A DNA stretch of 64,000 bases from Chloroflexota bacterium (lineage in GTDB: Bacteria > Chloroflexota > Anaerolineae > Anaerolineales > Anaerolineaceae): positions 1-64,000 of the forward strand of contig JAAYUC010000018.1 of the NCBI GenBank assembly GCA_012517865.1, written 5' to 3'. Both the position numbers and the translations under genes were made by a program. The first letter of the stretch is position 1. The number at the start of each line of letters is the position of its first letter. This document shows positions 1,396 to 36,887 of the stretch, piece by piece. The notes beneath the pieces were generated by a model that searched no databases, was not told the DNA's origin, and was given only the letters and a program-made list of their open reading frames with translations.

Positions 1396-2985
1396 CTAAA
1401 TCCCCGCGGGCGCGGAGCTGTAAAAACGCTTGTAAATCTCCGCATAGCGCGCTGCTTCCTGCTCCCAGCGCGCGTCCTCCCAGCCCAGTTCCTCCTGCGC
1501 GATTTCCCTTACCGTTGGCAGTTCAGCGCGCGCTCCTTCCGGCAGGAGCAGGCCCAGGCGGGTGCGGCGCAGCAGCAAATCGTCCAGGTGCTGAACGCTT
1601 TCGCTGCGGGCGGCGTAGCGCAGTTCGGCGCGGATGGTTGGAAGGTCCCCCACGGGGCTGAGTTCGGCAGGCCTGGCGGTGGATAAGAAGGTATCGAGCG
1701 CGGGTCCGTATCGACCGGCCAGGTAAAACAGCTCCGCCGGATTCAGAGCGGAGTATTCCGGCTTTGTTTGCTTTGGGAGAGCGCGGTAGTATCGTTTCAG
1801 CGGATTAAGCTGGACACCGAGTCTTGGCGCGGCTGCCTGCAGCGCGTCGGCAGCCATCTTGCGGAAAATGGTGAATTTTCCGCCGGTAATGGTAATCAAT
1901 CCGTTCTCTTCCCAGACCACATGCGCGCGGGATTCCGCGGAGGGGTCTGCCGCGCTGCCGCGGATGATGGGGCGCAGCCCGGCAAAGCTTGAGAGCGCGT
2001 CGGCCTGATTGAGCTTTACCGATGGGAAAATCGCGTCCGCGGCCTCCAAAATGTAATCAATTTCTGCCTGGGTGCAGTAGGGTTCGCCGTTATCCAGGGA
2101 AGAGGGGTGGTCCAGGTCTGTGGTGCCAATGATTGTGGCGCCCTCCCAGGGAATCGCAAACATGGCGCGCCCATCTTTTGGGTGAAGCAGCGTTACCGCG
2201 TGCGGAAGCGAAAGTTTTTCTTTCGGGAAGATGAGATGCGAACCGCGCTGCGGACGCAGGCGCCCCGGCGCATTCACCTGACGGCGCAAACCATCGCACC
2301 ACGGTCCGGCAGCGTTGATGACAACCCGGGCGCGCAATTCCTGGCTTCCAAGCGCTGTTGGCGATTGGTCGCTGAGCGCGACGCCGCAAACTGTGCCGTC
2401 GCGAAGGGTAAGCAGCTTCTCCACCCGCGCGTAATTAAGGGCGGTCCCGCCCTCCTGGCAGGTTTCCTGGATTAACCGCAGGACCATGCGCGCGTCATCC
2501 ATCACCGCATCGTAGTACAGATACGCGCCTGCCAGCCAGGGGGCGCTCAGCTGCGGTATCAGCCTGTGAACTTCCTGAAGCGAGAGTCCGCGGTGCTTCC
2601 ATTTTGGGGCCAACAGGTCGTACAGGATTGTCCCCAGCCGAAACATTTCGCGCTGTCCCCGCGCAGTGCTATATGGCAAGACAAAACCCAGTTCGCTGAC
2701 CAAGGACGGGGCTTCCCGCAGCAGAGCTTCCCGCTCCCGCACGGATTCCCGGGTGATGTCGTATTGCCGGTTGCGCAGGTAGCGGATACCTCCGTGGATG
2801 AGCTTGGAGGAACGGCTGGATGTGCCGCTGGAAAAATCATTTTGCTCGAGCAGCAAAACGCGCAAACCCTGCGCGACTGCCAGCCGGAAAACACCAGCTC
2901 CTGTGATACCGCCGCCCACGATGATGACGTCCCAATCCTGCTGCAGGGACTGCAACGTTACAGCCCGGTTATTGTCTAAGTTCAT
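1396..2985 (-). CDS. glpD: FAD-dependent glycerol-3-phosphate dehydrogenase
   Basis: 529 aa; DVIIVGGGITGAGVFRLAVAQGLRVLLLEQNDFSSGTSSRSSKLIHGGIRYL is diagnostic of GlpD. Confidence 0.93.
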   Translation of the reverse strand: MNLDNNRAVTLQSLQQDWDVIIVGGGITGAGVFRLAVAQGLRVLLLEQNDFSSGTSSRSSKLIHGGIRYLRNRQYDITRESVREREALLREAPSLVSELGFVLPYSTARGQREMFRLGTILYDLLAPKWKHRGLSLQEVHRLIPQLSAPWLAGAYLYYDAVMDDARMVLRLIQETCQEGGTALNYARVEKLLTLRDGTVCGVALSDQSPTALGSQELRARVVINAAGPWCDGLRRQVNAPGRLRPQRGSHLIFPKEKLSLPHAVTLLHPKDGRAMFAIPWEGATIIGTTDLDHPSSLDNGEPYCTQAEIDYILEAADAIFPSVKLNQADALSSFAGLRPIIRGSAADPSAESRAHVVWEENGLITITGGKFTIFRKMAADALQAAAPRLGVQLNPLKRYYRALPKQTKPEYSALNPAELFYLAGRYGPALDTFLSTARPAELSPVGDLPTIRAELRYAARSESVQHLDDLLLRRTRLGLLLPEGARAELPTVREIAQEELGWEDARWEQEAARYAEIYKRFYSSAPAGI

Positions 2986-3692
2986 TCAGTTTGCTCTCCT
3001 TTATTGCGTATAGTCTCCCAGATGTGAATGCTTTCAGTCATCATTTCGAGGGTCAATCGTTCTCCCGCGTCCGCGTCCCGCTGCCGGGCAGCCTGATACA
3101 GCTGCTGATAAAAACGGCGTGACCGGTTTCTGGCGGTTTCAAGGGAGAAATAGAGCGGACCCATCACCCGGTACAGCTCTTCGAAACCATTAAAAATCAA
3201 AGTGTAGATTGGATTTCCGGAAAGAATCGTCAGAACGCGCTGAAGTTCGATATCCGTGGCGGTAAAATCCTGCGCGGTATCCGGCAGGGCTTGCATCTGA
3301 GCGAGCTTTCGCTCCACAGCTTCAGGATCGCGCAAAATCGCCAGCCTGGTAAAGACGGGGGCGATTGTGGCGCGCACATCCAGCAGATTAGGAACGAAGG
3401 AGGGGGGCTGCGCCTGGGGCGTTTTGGCGAGGTAGTTGAGGATCAGCAGGTTGCCCTCCTGCCAGTAATTTCTTACGCGCGTTGACCTTCCATGATGAAT
3501 TTCAATCCAGCCCTCCCGCGAAAGTCTCTGCAGCGCTTCGCGCAGGGTGGGGCGGGTGACGCCCAGCATTTCAGCCAATTCCCGTTCAGGGGGAAGTTTG
3601 CTGCCGACCGGAAATGTGCCGTCCAGGACAGCGTCAAGCAGGCGGCGCTCAGTGATTTCAGCTGCTTTTTGTGGAGCGCTCCACTCGGGCAT
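2982..3692 (-). CDS. FadR/GntR-family transcriptional regulator
   Basis: 236 aa; N-terminal wHTH GSKLPPERELAEMLGVTRPTLREALQRLSREGWIEIHHGRSTRV; overlaps glpD start by 4 nt. Confidence 0.9.
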   Translation of the reverse strand: MPEWSAPQKAAEITERRLLDAVLDGTFPVGSKLPPERELAEMLGVTRPTLREALQRLSREGWIEIHHGRSTRVRNYWQEGNLLILNYLAKTPQAQPPSFVPNLLDVRATIAPVFTRLAILRDPEAVERKLAQMQALPDTAQDFTATDIELQRVLTILSGNPIYTLIFNGFEELYRVMGPLYFSLETARNRSRRFYQQLYQAARQRDADAGERLTLEMMTESIHIWETIRNKGEQTE

Positions 3693-3903: not shown

Positions 3904-4608
3904 GTGGTGAGGATGAAGCAGTGGACAGCAATGGACGACAAGCAGGGCCTGATTAGGATTCTTGGTAAGACCGCCGTGTTCTCTGCGCTTTCAGTGCAGG
4001 AACTTGGTCTCATCGCGGAAACGAGCGTGCTGCGTACGTACAGCCCGGGGGCCCCGATTTTCTTCCAGGGTGATGAGATTGCCAGCATCCTGGTCGTTCT
4101 GGAAGGTGACATCGCAGTATTTCAGTGTTCCTCCGACGGCAGGGAACAAATCCTCTCGCATCTGCGGGAGGGCGAGATCATTTCTGTGGTTCCACTGTTA
4201 TTGTACAAAAATGCCTGTCATGCCGCCAGCGGGAGAGCCGTCCGGGCGACAAAAATCGTTTCTCTGCCGCTGCGTCTATTTGATGAATTGTGCGCCAAAA
4301 ACGCGGCCTTCGACCGAACACTGCTCCGCTACCTGGCAGGGAAGCTGGAACAAATCAGCAGTCTGGCTGGCAGCCTCAGCCTGAGGACCGCCCGCTCCCG
4401 GCTGGCTGCCTTTCTGATAAAAAGGGCAGACGAGCCCGGACAATCGGTAGGCATCACGCAGGAAGAAATCGCCGCCGAAATCGGCACTGTCCGCGAGATT
4501 GTCGCCCGCCTGCTGCGGGATTTCGCGCAGGCAGGCTGGCTGAAACGTGAGCGCCAGAACCTGGTCTTGCTAAACAGGGAAGCGCTCGAAGAAGAAGCGC
4601 GGCGCTGA
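3904..4608 (+). CDS. Crp/Fnr-family transcriptional regulator (HcpR-like candidate)
   Basis: cNMP-binding-like fold plus HTH ITQEEIAAEIGTVREIVARLLRDF; start could be GTG 3904, ATG 3913 or ATG 3931. Confidence 0.9.
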   Translation: MVRMKQWTAMDDKQGLIRILGKTAVFSALSVQELGLIAETSVLRTYSPGAPIFFQGDEIASILVVLEGDIAVFQCSSDGREQILSHLREGEIISVVPLLLYKNACHAASGRAVRATKIVSLPLRLFDELCAKNAAFDRTLLRYLAGKLEQISSLAGSLSLRTARSRLAAFLIKRADEPGQSVGITQEEIAAEIGTVREIVARLLRDFAQAGWLKRERQNLVLLNREALEEEARR

Positions 4609-4641
4609 TTGTCGGCACGTCGGTCAAACTGACATATGTAA

Positions 4642-4657
4642 TGTGACTTAAGTCACA
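4642..4657. promoter_or_regulatory. Predicted CRP/HcpR-type operator, perfect palindrome TGTGACTTAAGTCACA
   Basis: 16-nt perfect palindrome of the form TGTGA-N6-TCACA between the Crp/Fnr gene and the ferredoxin gene. Confidence 0.8.
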
Positions 4658-4678
4658 GCGCTTGCAAACAGAACCAGG

Positions 4679-4684
4679 TAAACT
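4679..4684 (+). promoter_or_regulatory. Predicted -10 element TAAACT for leaderless ferredoxin transcript
   Basis: TAAACT followed by 6 nt then ATG at 4691; no Shine-Dalgarno in the gap. Confidence 0.5.
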
Positions 4685-4690
4685 CAACTC

Positions 4691-4915
4691 ATGGTAAACG
4701 ATTTCGCTCTTCCAATTATTGACCTCACGTTGTGCAGCGGCTGCGGCGCCTGCGCGGCAGCCTGCCCCGAACACGCGCTGATGATGACTGTCGACAGTCA
4801 GCAGCCGGCCTTCGTGGAACCATACGCCTGTACTTACTGCACGGAATGTGAGGCGGTCTGTCCGGAAAACGCGATTCATTGCCCATTGACCATTACATGG
4901 AACACTGAAGATTAG
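4691..4915 (+). CDS. 2[4Fe-4S] ferredoxin
   Basis: 74 aa with CSGCGACAAACP and CTYCTECEAVCP cluster motifs. Confidence 0.93.
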   Translation: MVNDFALPIIDLTLCSGCGACAAACPEHALMMTVDSQQPAFVEPYACTYCTECEAVCPENAIHCPLTITWNTED

Positions 4916-4929
4916 CAAAAGGAGAAATC

Positions 4930-6117
4930 ATGAGTGAATTTATCAACAACGCGTCGAAACGCAAAGAGGCCCTGAAAGCTATCATCCGCAAATTACATGC
5001 CGGAGAAAGCGTGGAGTCTTTGCAGGAAGAATTCAATGAAATCATCGCCGAAGCCACCGCCTCGGATATCGCCCAGGCAGAGCGCGAGGTCATCGCCGAA
5101 GGACTGCCAGTCGCTGATATTCAGAAGCTGTGCGATTTGCATGTGGCCGTTTTTCAACGGGGGTTGGAGAACCAGGCCGCTCCGGAATCCGTACCTGGCC
5201 ATCCGGTGCACAACTTCCGTTTGGAAAACGAGATTATCGGGCGCGTGCTTGAATCTGTCGAAGGCAGCCTTGCCCGGCTCCTGGCTGGTGATAAAGACGC
5301 GCTGAAATCCCTGCGCATGGCGGCAGGCAACTTACAGTTGATTGAGCGCCACTACGAGTGGAAAGAGAATTTGCTCTTTCCTGTGCTCGAGAAGTACGGC
5401 TTTGAAGGACCCTCCAAAGTGATGTGGGGCGTGCACAACGACATCCGCAAAGCAATCCGAAACCTGCAGGCATTGATTAACAGCGACCCGCTTGACCTTG
5501 AGACCATTGACGCCGAATATCTTGACCTGGCAAAAGCAGTTAGGGATATGTTCTATAAAGAAGAAAAAGTGCTGCTGCCGGAGTCTTTAGCCCGCCTGAG
5601 CCAGGAGGATTGGGACATGATTAAGGCGGAGAGCCTGAGCCTTAAAAAGGAACCGGAAGCTGCCGAGCCGGCGGAAGGCGAGCCTGAACCAACCCCCGCA
5701 ACCAATGGCAAAATTCCGCTTTCCACTGGCGCGCTGACGCAGGAACAGATTAATCTGATGCTCAGCAATCTGCCGGTAGATATCACCTTTGTGGATGAGA
5801 ACGATAAGGTGTGTTTCTTCTCTCAGACGCCCGACCGGATTTTCGTCCGCACGGCCGCCATCATTGGCAGGGCTGTCCAAAACTGCCACCCGCCGCAAAG
5901 TGTGCACGTTGTCCAGCGCATCGTTGATGATTTCCGAGCCGGAAAGCGGGATGTAGCGGAATTTTGGATTCAGATGGGTCCCAAATTTGTTCATATTCGC
6001 TACTTCGCGCTGAGAGACGCGCAGGGTACTTACAAGGGCGTCATTGAGGTGACCCAGGATGTCAGCGGTATCCGCGCGTTGGAGGGAGAACGCCGATTGC
6101 TTGAGGACGATAAATAA
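4930..6117 (+). CDS. DUF438-like protein with hemerythrin (HHE) and C-terminal PAS domains
   Basis: 395 aa; N-terminal small helical domain, HPVHNF...ERHYEWKENLLFPVLEKYG...HNDIRKA hemerythrin-type His/Glu pattern, PAS-like C-terminus. Confidence 0.85.
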   Translation: MSEFINNASKRKEALKAIIRKLHAGESVESLQEEFNEIIAEATASDIAQAEREVIAEGLPVADIQKLCDLHVAVFQRGLENQAAPESVPGHPVHNFRLENEIIGRVLESVEGSLARLLAGDKDALKSLRMAAGNLQLIERHYEWKENLLFPVLEKYGFEGPSKVMWGVHNDIRKAIRNLQALINSDPLDLETIDAEYLDLAKAVRDMFYKEEKVLLPESLARLSQEDWDMIKAESLSLKKEPEAAEPAEGEPEPTPATNGKIPLSTGALTQEQINLMLSNLPVDITFVDENDKVCFFSQTPDRIFVRTAAIIGRAVQNCHPPQSVHVVQRIVDDFRAGKRDVAEFWIQMGPKFVHIRYFALRDAQGTYKGVIEVTQDVSGIRALEGERRLLEDDK

Positions 6118-6193
6118 GAGTCAGGCAACCGCGCATAAATCGCGGGCATACTCTGAGAGTGCGTAAGACCATCCTCTTGAAAAACCAAAATAG

Positions 6194-6225
6194 GAGCTCC
6201 GGAAACCGGAGCTCTATTCTTTTTC
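6194..6225 (+). terminator. Rho-independent terminator
   Basis: GAGCTCCGG-AAA-CCGGAGCTC followed by TATTCTTTTT, after the DUF438-like gene. Confidence 0.8.
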
Positions 6226-15036: not shown

Positions 15037-15214
15037 GGCGAACTCCTCTATTCAGGTTTTGTTGATTCTATCCTAATTCAAGCCGTCTGTGGAGAGAATT
15101 TCGCCTGAAAAAAGGAAAAACCTGCCAGGCGAAAGCCCGACGCTGTCGCACAATACCGGCCTGATTATCCTTCCGGGAGCTTATACCTGGCGCGGCACAT
15201 TTGCTGAGAACAGG

Positions 15215-15220
15215 TATAAT
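15215..15220 (+). promoter_or_regulatory. -10 element TATAAT, leaderless configuration
   Basis: TATAAT-N6-ATG(15227). Confidence 0.65.
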
Positions 15221-15226
15221 GCCGCT

Positions 15227-16411
15227 ATGAAAATTTATGGTAAGCTCACCGCGCTGCTGCTCGCGAGCGCGCTGCTGTTCAGTTTTTATCCAGCCGCGAA
15301 GGTGCAGGCAGCCTCTGCCGAGACAGATGGCTCGTTCTATTACGACTTACCCTTGTGTCTACCCGGCTTATACAATGACGCCCCGGAAGACTGCCTTCCT
15401 TTGGGGGCTTCCCTGTCATTAAAAAACCTGGCTGAAGAAGGAATCCCTTACATCCTCGAGGAACTTCCCGCGGCTTCTCCGGATTATTCCCTCACTGAAC
15501 TGCCTGTTTGGGTGGCAAAAATCGTCGCCGGCAGCTCCGAAGCCGTGCCAGTCTATGCCAGCCTGGATGAAGCCCGCAACGGCGGGACGCCGCTGCGTAC
15601 GCTGGCCGCAGGGCCGATGCGCTACGTCTCCATGGTCAATCAGGTCAGCGACGGCAACCGCATTTTGGTGCAGTTGGAAAGCGGCGAGTGGATGCAAGCC
15701 CAACCCATTTATTCCTGGACGCGCTTTCAGGGGCTGCGTTTTTCCCGCACGCCTAAAAATGACTTTGGCTGGATTGTGAATGACGCGGAAGGATACACAG
15801 CGCCGGGCTACGCCTCCCCAAAAACCGGCCGTGTGCATGCCAAGTATGAAGTGATTCAGATTTTCCAGATGGCGGAGGCTGATGGATATGAATGGTACCG
15901 CATCAGTCAGGATGAATGGGTTTCGTCGCATAAATCCCGCCGGGTGGTGGTGGATACCACTCCCCCGCCGGGTGTGACCGGCGACCGTTGGATAAACATT
16001 GATTTAGGCAACTATACCCTGGCAGTCTACGAAGGCGGCGAATTGGTTTTCGCCAGCCTGATAGCCACCGGCCTGCCGCCTTTCTATACCCAGCCGGGGA
16101 CCTTTCAGATATACAAGATGTACGAAACTGTAACGATGCAGGATGCTTACGAGGCGGACCGCTCCGATTTTTATCACCTGCAGGCGGTGCCCTGGGCGAT
16201 GTTTTACGACCGCAACACGGCCATACACGGCGTTTATTGGCCGGTGGTGTTGGGATTCAATCAATCGCACGGCTGTGTCAATATGTCTCCCGGCGACGCG
16301 AATTGGGTGTATCACTGGGCCAGGGAAGGTGATTGGGTTTATGTTCACGACCCCAGCGGCAAGACTCCGACAGACCCGGCTTATTACGGCGGAGTCAGCA
16401 CCGGTCCTTGA
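15227..16411 (+). CDS. L,D-transpeptidase (YkuD domain) with signal peptide
   Basis: Start at MKIYGKLTALLLASALLF; YkuD motif HGVYW...NQSHGCVNMSPGDANWVY. Confidence 0.88.
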   Translation: MKIYGKLTALLLASALLFSFYPAAKVQAASAETDGSFYYDLPLCLPGLYNDAPEDCLPLGASLSLKNLAEEGIPYILEELPAASPDYSLTELPVWVAKIVAGSSEAVPVYASLDEARNGGTPLRTLAAGPMRYVSMVNQVSDGNRILVQLESGEWMQAQPIYSWTRFQGLRFSRTPKNDFGWIVNDAEGYTAPGYASPKTGRVHAKYEVIQIFQMAEADGYEWYRISQDEWVSSHKSRRVVVDTTPPPGVTGDRWINIDLGNYTLAVYEGGELVFASLIATGLPPFYTQPGTFQIYKMYETVTMQDAYEADRSDFYHLQAVPWAMFYDRNTAIHGVYWPVVLGFNQSHGCVNMSPGDANWVYHWAREGDWVYVHDPSGKTPTDPAYYGGVSTGP

Positions 16412-36101: not shown

Positions 36102-36170
36102 CCATGGGCTCTGTTCATGAATACAGGCTTACTGCTCCCGCGTAGAATCCTTTAAGTTATAATGCCGGTT

Positions 36171-36887
36171 GTGGAAAATTTCGTGCAAAACGCGCGCCAG
36201 TTATTAGGGCTGCAGCTCAGCCGCGAACAGATTGCGGCGTTTAAACTCTTTCAGGATGAACTGATAGAGTGGAACAGCCGATTTAACCTGACCGCAATCC
36301 GGGATAAGGAAGGGATTGAGACCAAGCATTTTCTGGACTCCCTGACCTGTTTGATGGCTTTGGACCCAGCCGCTTCTCCGCGCAGCTTGATTGATGTCGG
36401 CACTGGCGCTGGCTTCCCTGGCATTCCTCTCAAATTAATTCTCCCGCAGTTGCGCCTGACCCTGGTCGAATCCATTCAAAAAAAGGCCGGCTTTTGCGTG
36501 CATATCGTCGAGAAGCTTGGGTTGCGGCAGGTGCAGGTGCTGGCGGAAAGGGCGGAGGACGTCGGGCAGAACCCTGAACACCGCGAAAGCTACGACCTGG
36601 CGACAGCCCGCGCGGTCGCCGCGATGCCCACACTTGTGGAATACCTGCTGCCTCTGGTGCGCATAGGCGGACTTGTGATTATGCAAAAAGGGGAAAGCGC
36701 TCAGCTCGAAGCCCTGCAAAGCGAAAAGGTCATCCAGCGTCTGGGCGGAAAAATCAAGGTCATCCTGCCTGTGGTGCTGCCCGGAGTCGTTGATGAACGC
36801 TATCTGGTGGTGCTGGAGAAGGTCGCGCGAACTTCCGCTGAGTTTCCTCGCCGAACCGGTCTGCCTTCCAAACAGCCGCTTGCTTAA
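36171..36887 (+). CDS. rsmG: 16S rRNA (guanine-N7)-methyltransferase RsmG
   Basis: LIEWNSRFNLTAIRD, HFLDSL, LIDVGTGAGFPGIPLKL; GTG at 36171 preferred because the ATG at 36162 lies inside a TATAAT box. Confidence 0.93.
   Translation: MENFVQNARQLLGLQLSREQIAAFKLFQDELIEWNSRFNLTAIRDKEGIETKHFLDSLTCLMALDPAASPRSLIDVGTGAGFPGIPLKLILPQLRLTLVESIQKKAGFCVHIVEKLGLRQVQVLAERAEDVGQNPEHRESYDLATARAVAAMPTLVEYLLPLVRIGGLVIMQKGESAQLEALQSEKVIQRLGGKIKVILPVVLPGVVDERYLVVLEKVARTSAEFPRRTGLPSKQPLA

Follow-up and report, generated by a model that had tools for sequence, protein, structure and literature searches.

The stretch of DNA analysed here (the window, 64,000 nucleotides) comes from an uncultured, anaerobic member of the Chloroflexota. 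Its 1.9 Mb genome, in 51 contigs, is 99.8% complete, and its nearest named relatives are metagenome-assembled genomes of the Anaerolineaceae (Chloroflexota). Three genes lie on one strand of the window, coding for a Crp/Fnr-family regulator, a small ferredoxin and a DUF438-hemerythrin-PAS protein, and the series is closed by a terminator (Table 1). Between the regulator and ferredoxin genes is the sequence TGTGACTTAAGTCACA, which is self-complementary at 16 of 16 positions. The ferredoxin start codon is separated from a -10 element by the six bases CAACTC, and the ATG of the second gene of the operon is preceded by AGGAG. Upstream of the module, in the opposite orientation, a FadR-type GntR regulator gene (2982-3692, minus strand) adjoins a glycerol-3-phosphate dehydrogenase/oxidase-like gene (1396-2985, minus strand).

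Table 1. Features of the regulator-ferredoxin-hemerythrin locus, in window coordinates.
Feature	Position	Strand	Remarks
Crp/Fnr-family regulator	3931..4608	+	ORF opens with GTG at 3904; ATG 3931 is the likely start by alignment to relatives
Operator TGTGACTTAAGTCACA	4642..4657	.	Centre 4649.5; unique in the genome, position kept in relatives
-10 element TAAACT	4679..4684	+	21 nt downstream of the operator; -35 element absent
Predicted transcription start, A of the ATG (leaderless)	4691..4691	+	Suggested by -10 spacing in four own-genus loci
2[4Fe-4S] ferredoxin, 74 aa, FrdX-like	4691..4915	+	Pfam Fer4; homologues directly 5' of hcp in G109 and G122
DUF438-hemerythrin-PAS_10 protein, 395 aa	4930..6117	+	Pfam; relative of PDB 3cax; alignment; AlphaFold2
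Intrinsic terminator, end of operon	6193..6215	+	10-bp stem then T-run; strong

The regulator matches the Pfam families cNMP_binding and HTH_Crp_2 (61.6 and 54.5 bits, above the cut-offs), which places it in the Crp/Fnr superfamily, and this copy is the only homologue found in the genome. Its recognition helix, GTVREIVARLL, has the R-E-x-x-x-R spacing that the initial annotation had pointed out, and is of the same R180/E181/R185 type as that of E. coli CRP. The cAMP-contact residues, in contrast, are not kept: E72, R82, S83 and T127 of the CRP pocket correspond to V, H, A and I in the window protein, which is moreover predicted to be a dedicated and local regulator whereas CRP is global. There is no FNR-type cysteine cluster (no Cys is conserved in half of the orthologues and none is present in the N terminus of the window protein), and no His or Cys of the sensor domain that might serve as a heme ligand is conserved in half or more of 41 orthologues. 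The earlier description of the regulator as NO/O2-responsive thus finds no footing in an FNR cluster, a conserved heme His or a cAMP pocket; a response to NO or O2 would have to be argued not from the regulator but from what the target operon contains and from a Desulfovibrio hemerythrin-PAS protein that NO induces.

The ferredoxin contains two complete CxxCxxCxxxCP motifs. (Its gene contains another perfect 16-bp palindrome, TGACTGTCGACAGTCA at 4786-4801, which is taken to be a chance occurrence.) In the protein encoded downstream, the three Pfam domains follow one another in the order DUF438, hemerythrin, PAS_10, an H/E/H set of residues is present, the AlphaFold2 model has a pLDDT of 81, and the fold matches that of a solved relative, PF0695 (PDB 3cax). 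The candidate diiron ligands are H141, E146 and H169; the first two are invariant in the alignment, and the third position is His in most of the aligned proteins and Asp in some. Our search for literature on DUF438 (COG2461) yielded nothing useful, and the closest described parallels are PF0695 and the Desulfovibrio proteins Ddes_1165 and DVU2590, which share the combination of hemerythrin and PAS domains and the H/E/H spacing. According to the available text of the relevant report, the D. desulfuricans protein Ddes_1165 is NO-induced, with H234, E239 and H262 as proposed ligands, and its D. vulgaris homologue responds to nitrite but shows no response to oxidative stress (PMC5701242). In our alignment the spacing of these proposed ligands equals that of H141, E146 and H169. 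Unlike the window protein, Ddes_1165 and DVU2590 are not described in that text as part of a dedicated Crp/Fnr-ferredoxin operon.

The coordinates and symmetry of the palindrome between the regulator and ferredoxin genes are exactly as first described. By itself such a palindrome would be weak evidence, as chance alone would give 1.27 TGTGAC-N4-GTCACA sites with 2 mismatches per 64-kb window, and it gains significance only through conservation. The sequence is unchanged in the two nearest relatives and differs by one base in a third. A scan of the whole 1.9-Mb genome for TGTGA-N6-TCACA, which the initial annotation had called for, returned this one site, and there are no further sites within 3 mismatches of the 16-mer. 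A looser scan of the same genome (GAY-W4-RTC followed by a -10 element) gave four other matches, about the number expected by chance, none of which resembles the operator outside the core. The module therefore appears to be self-contained, with a single site and one predicted target operon.

Comparison across the family reveals a regularity of promoter geometry. In Anaerolineaceae triads the operator between regulator and ferredoxin reads GAC-WWWW-GTC, an invariance that is partly by construction because the 30 loci compared were chosen by the GAC/GTC pattern. The distance to the -10 element played no part in that choice, and in 27 of the 30 a TAnnnT hexamer is located exactly 21 nt past the operator (P ~1e-49 against the local TAnnnT rate, a value that ignores the relatedness of the loci and overstates the evidence because some are close relatives). 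Even so, the effect as judged from these sequences is far beyond doubt; in five genomes whose loci the strict pattern had missed, a variant site is present and the -10 element again lies at exactly 21 nt. The combined pattern of operator, 21 nt and -10 element occurs 32 times in 147 genomes and 7 times on the reversed control, many of the 32 matches being directly 3' of the regulator gene. For four matches (L113, L115, L117 and L118, in G128, G108, G056 and G120) no plausible target lies within operon distance, and these may have arisen by chance.

No -35 element rises above the random level in the 35 promoters tested, with a mean of 2.46 matches to TTGACA for the real and for the shuffled sequences alike. 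The centre of the window operator (4649.5) is 41.5 nt upstream of 4691, in agreement with the distances first given for the operator and for TAAACT-N6-ATG. In all four loci of the window's own genus the -10 hexamer is 6-7 nt before the ATG, which argues for a leaderless ferredoxin transcript with +1 at 4691, as had been proposed; in most other genera a leader is present between promoter and start codon. (TATAAT also stands 6-7 nt ahead of in-frame starts of two other long ORFs of the window, at 15089-16411 and 36162-36887, so that leaderless genes may be no rarity here.) Given the fixed 21-nt spacing and the random-level -35 region, the arrangement has the predicted geometry of a class II activator promoter, centred at -41.5 from the predicted start, a position and a lack of -35 element shared with the class II promoters of E. 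coli CRP. The activator position suggested at the outset is thereby borne out at the level of promoter architecture.

Three lines of evidence tie this operator to the regulator. The triad of regulator, ferredoxin and DUF438 genes is conserved in the Anaerolineaceae, including the cultured Ornatilinea apprima and Leptolinea sp. HRD-7, and where the regulator gene is unlinked (G111, G109 and G135) the operator is still found at the ferredoxin-DUF438 or DUF438 genes. Conversely, around the DUF438 loci of own-genus genomes that have no regulator gene, operator and ferredoxin are both missing. Finally, operator and recognition helix vary together. The usual operator of the family is TNNGAC-N4-GTCGTA and is accompanied by an R-D helix: most members combine R-D-x-x-G-R (or S) with GTCGTA, GTCCTA, GTCTTA or GTCATA half-sites, and the window regulator and those of three genus mates combine R-E-x-x-A-R with GTCACA. 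The regulators of G122 and G033, fetched after this pattern had been seen, also have R-E helices, and G122, G033 and G109 have TCACA half-sites at ferredoxin-hcp or ferredoxin-DUF438 promoters. The E-type regulators form two separate, well supported clades in the regulator tree. There is one exception, a second site in G109, at DUF438, which has a GTCGTA half despite the E-type helix. The residues that change with the operator are 181 and 184 (E. coli numbering); positions 180 and 181 have been tied to operator bases by Rodionov et al. (PMC1274295). Since unlinked operators, co-loss and covariation all agree, we attribute the operator to this regulator. The designation of the protein as a TGTGA reader is therefore apt for the window's clade and one other, but not for the family, which mostly pairs GTCGTA with an R-D helix. 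This operator type and the 21-nt spacing recur in a separate Crp/Fnr subfamily whose helix is D-type (L120, L121, L122 and L126). There the site lies upstream of a DUF1858 gene, next to which comes a PEMT-type methyltransferase gene, or of a UbiA-family CtaB-like prenyltransferase gene (G139, G142 and G143; G035). Outside the Anaerolineaceae a ferredoxin or regulator gene is mostly absent from the vicinity of DUF438, and a deltaproteobacterial locus with a divergent Crp/Fnr gene (L077) was set aside as it has no matching operator.

The same operator is associated with hcp in related genera, which supports the suggested link to HcpR-type regulation of hcp and frdX. In genus g5, the sister group of the window's clade in the tree of regulators, eight of nine hcp promoters carry it (scores 18.1-21.6; the ninth scores 15.6), and six have the -10 element at a distance of exactly 21 nt, against a background of 2 such matches in 966 kb. 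In G109 the order is regulator, TGTAACTTTTATCACA, 21 nt, TACGCT, ferredoxin, Hcp, the order familiar from hcpR-frdX-hcp systems. In the window genome hcp is absent altogether, and the hcp genes of two own-genus genomes (G099 and G100) have no operator, so that within the window's own clade there is no sign of the hcp link. One own-genus genome with the triad has an hcp match of 114 positions only (G085:C14:18459-18773), which may be a fragment, a decayed gene or a contig end.

HcpR regulates hcp and frdX (PMC1274295), and in C. difficile the sole HcpR site among the affected genes is at frdX-hcp (PMC12915319). The window module resembles these systems (Desulfovibrio HcpR1, clostridial HcpR2 and C. 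difficile hcpR; PMC1274295, PMC12915319) in having a Crp/Fnr gene beside a small ferredoxin gene, a TGTGA-N6-TCACA-like site, few targets as in C. difficile, and, in g5 and G109, orthologues linked to hcp. It differs in that a DUF438-hemerythrin-PAS protein takes the place of hcp, in the usual GTCGTA operator and D-type helix of most family members, in the lack of a heme-ligand candidate, and in that the regulator sequence groups apart from hcp-adjacent Crp/Fnr proteins of G079, G089, G114, G060 and one Bacteroidota, the hcp-adjacent proteins that were sampled for the comparison. Among other phyla a single candidate hcp-adjacent regulator was found, and the literature searched holds no report of HcpR in Chloroflexi. 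Predicted sites of the orthologues point to control of hcp and/or frdX, and in the window of the ferredoxin only. Because it does not group with the sampled hcp-adjacent regulators, we call this Crp/Fnr protein HcpR-like, by the predicted targets of its orthologues, rather than HcpR.

We consider it likely that the regulator is an HcpR-like nitrosative-stress activator that acts through a class II operator on one ferredoxin-DUF438/hemerythrin/PAS operon. A dimer would bind 4642-4657, centred at -41.5, and recruit RNA polymerase to a promoter with a -10 element and none at -35, and the leaderless operon would be transcribed from 4691. Since the operator also serves orthologues at hcp, the signal would be nitrosative stress (NO or nitrite) or a redox stress akin to it. 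The ferredoxin may pass electrons to the diiron protein, which could remove NO, O2 or nitrite, or repair damaged iron centres, and would thus fill the place of Hcp in hcpR-frdX-hcp systems.

Other readings of the locus differ in how well they accommodate these observations. That the palindrome arose by chance or is purely structural, with no tie to the regulator, is hardly credible: perfect 16-bp palindromes and two-mismatch matches do arise randomly, but the idea is already contradicted by the conserved place and spacing of the site, by operators kept without a linked regulator, by the joint loss of operator and regulator and by the covariation with the helix. The regulator might instead be a repressor, its site covering the -35 region and blocking polymerase until a signal releases it, and Crp/Fnr proteins are capable of repression. 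The constant 21-nt spacing, however, is expected for contact between activator and polymerase and would be unneeded for blocking, and since the -35 test came out random we regard repression as very improbable.

A closer competitor keeps the class II activator and the operon and changes the signal to oxygen or a general redox cue, with the hemerythrin and ferredoxin as an O2 scavenger of an obligate anaerobe. Hemerythrin domains bind O2; the genome has no Pfam rubrerythrin match and one flavodiiron-type match above cut-off, so O2 defence could be needed; and a CtaB-like prenyltransferase gene follows a paralogous regulator whose promoter geometry is the same. On the other hand, orthologous operators are found at hcp in g5, and G109 joins regulator, ferredoxin and Hcp. 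The reported nitrite response of the D. vulgaris homologue, with none to oxidative stress (PMC5701242), also speaks against oxygen, and we think oxygen the unlikely choice.

A more tentative proposal is that these loci form a rewiring series. A single orthologous HcpR-like activator would govern frdX-hcp or hcp in certain lineages and frdX-hemerythrin/PAS elsewhere, the diiron protein having perhaps taken over the task of Hcp in the window lineage. Residue 181 of the helix (D or E) and the promoter-proximal half-site (GTCGTA or TCACA) would then have shifted in step on two or more occasions, while the class II promoter stayed fixed. Most members of this family are uncultured anaerobes, and the analysis predicts for them a regulator with its operator and promoter geometry and names a candidate for the stress signal. 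Through the shared regulator, DUF438-hemerythrin-PAS proteins, which are poorly understood, would be tied to the stress response of Hcp and FrdX. What the regulator controls, how it acts and which stress it probably answers to become directly testable, and a compact system of one regulator and one to few sites would suit the study of how Crp/Fnr specificity and target sets change jointly.
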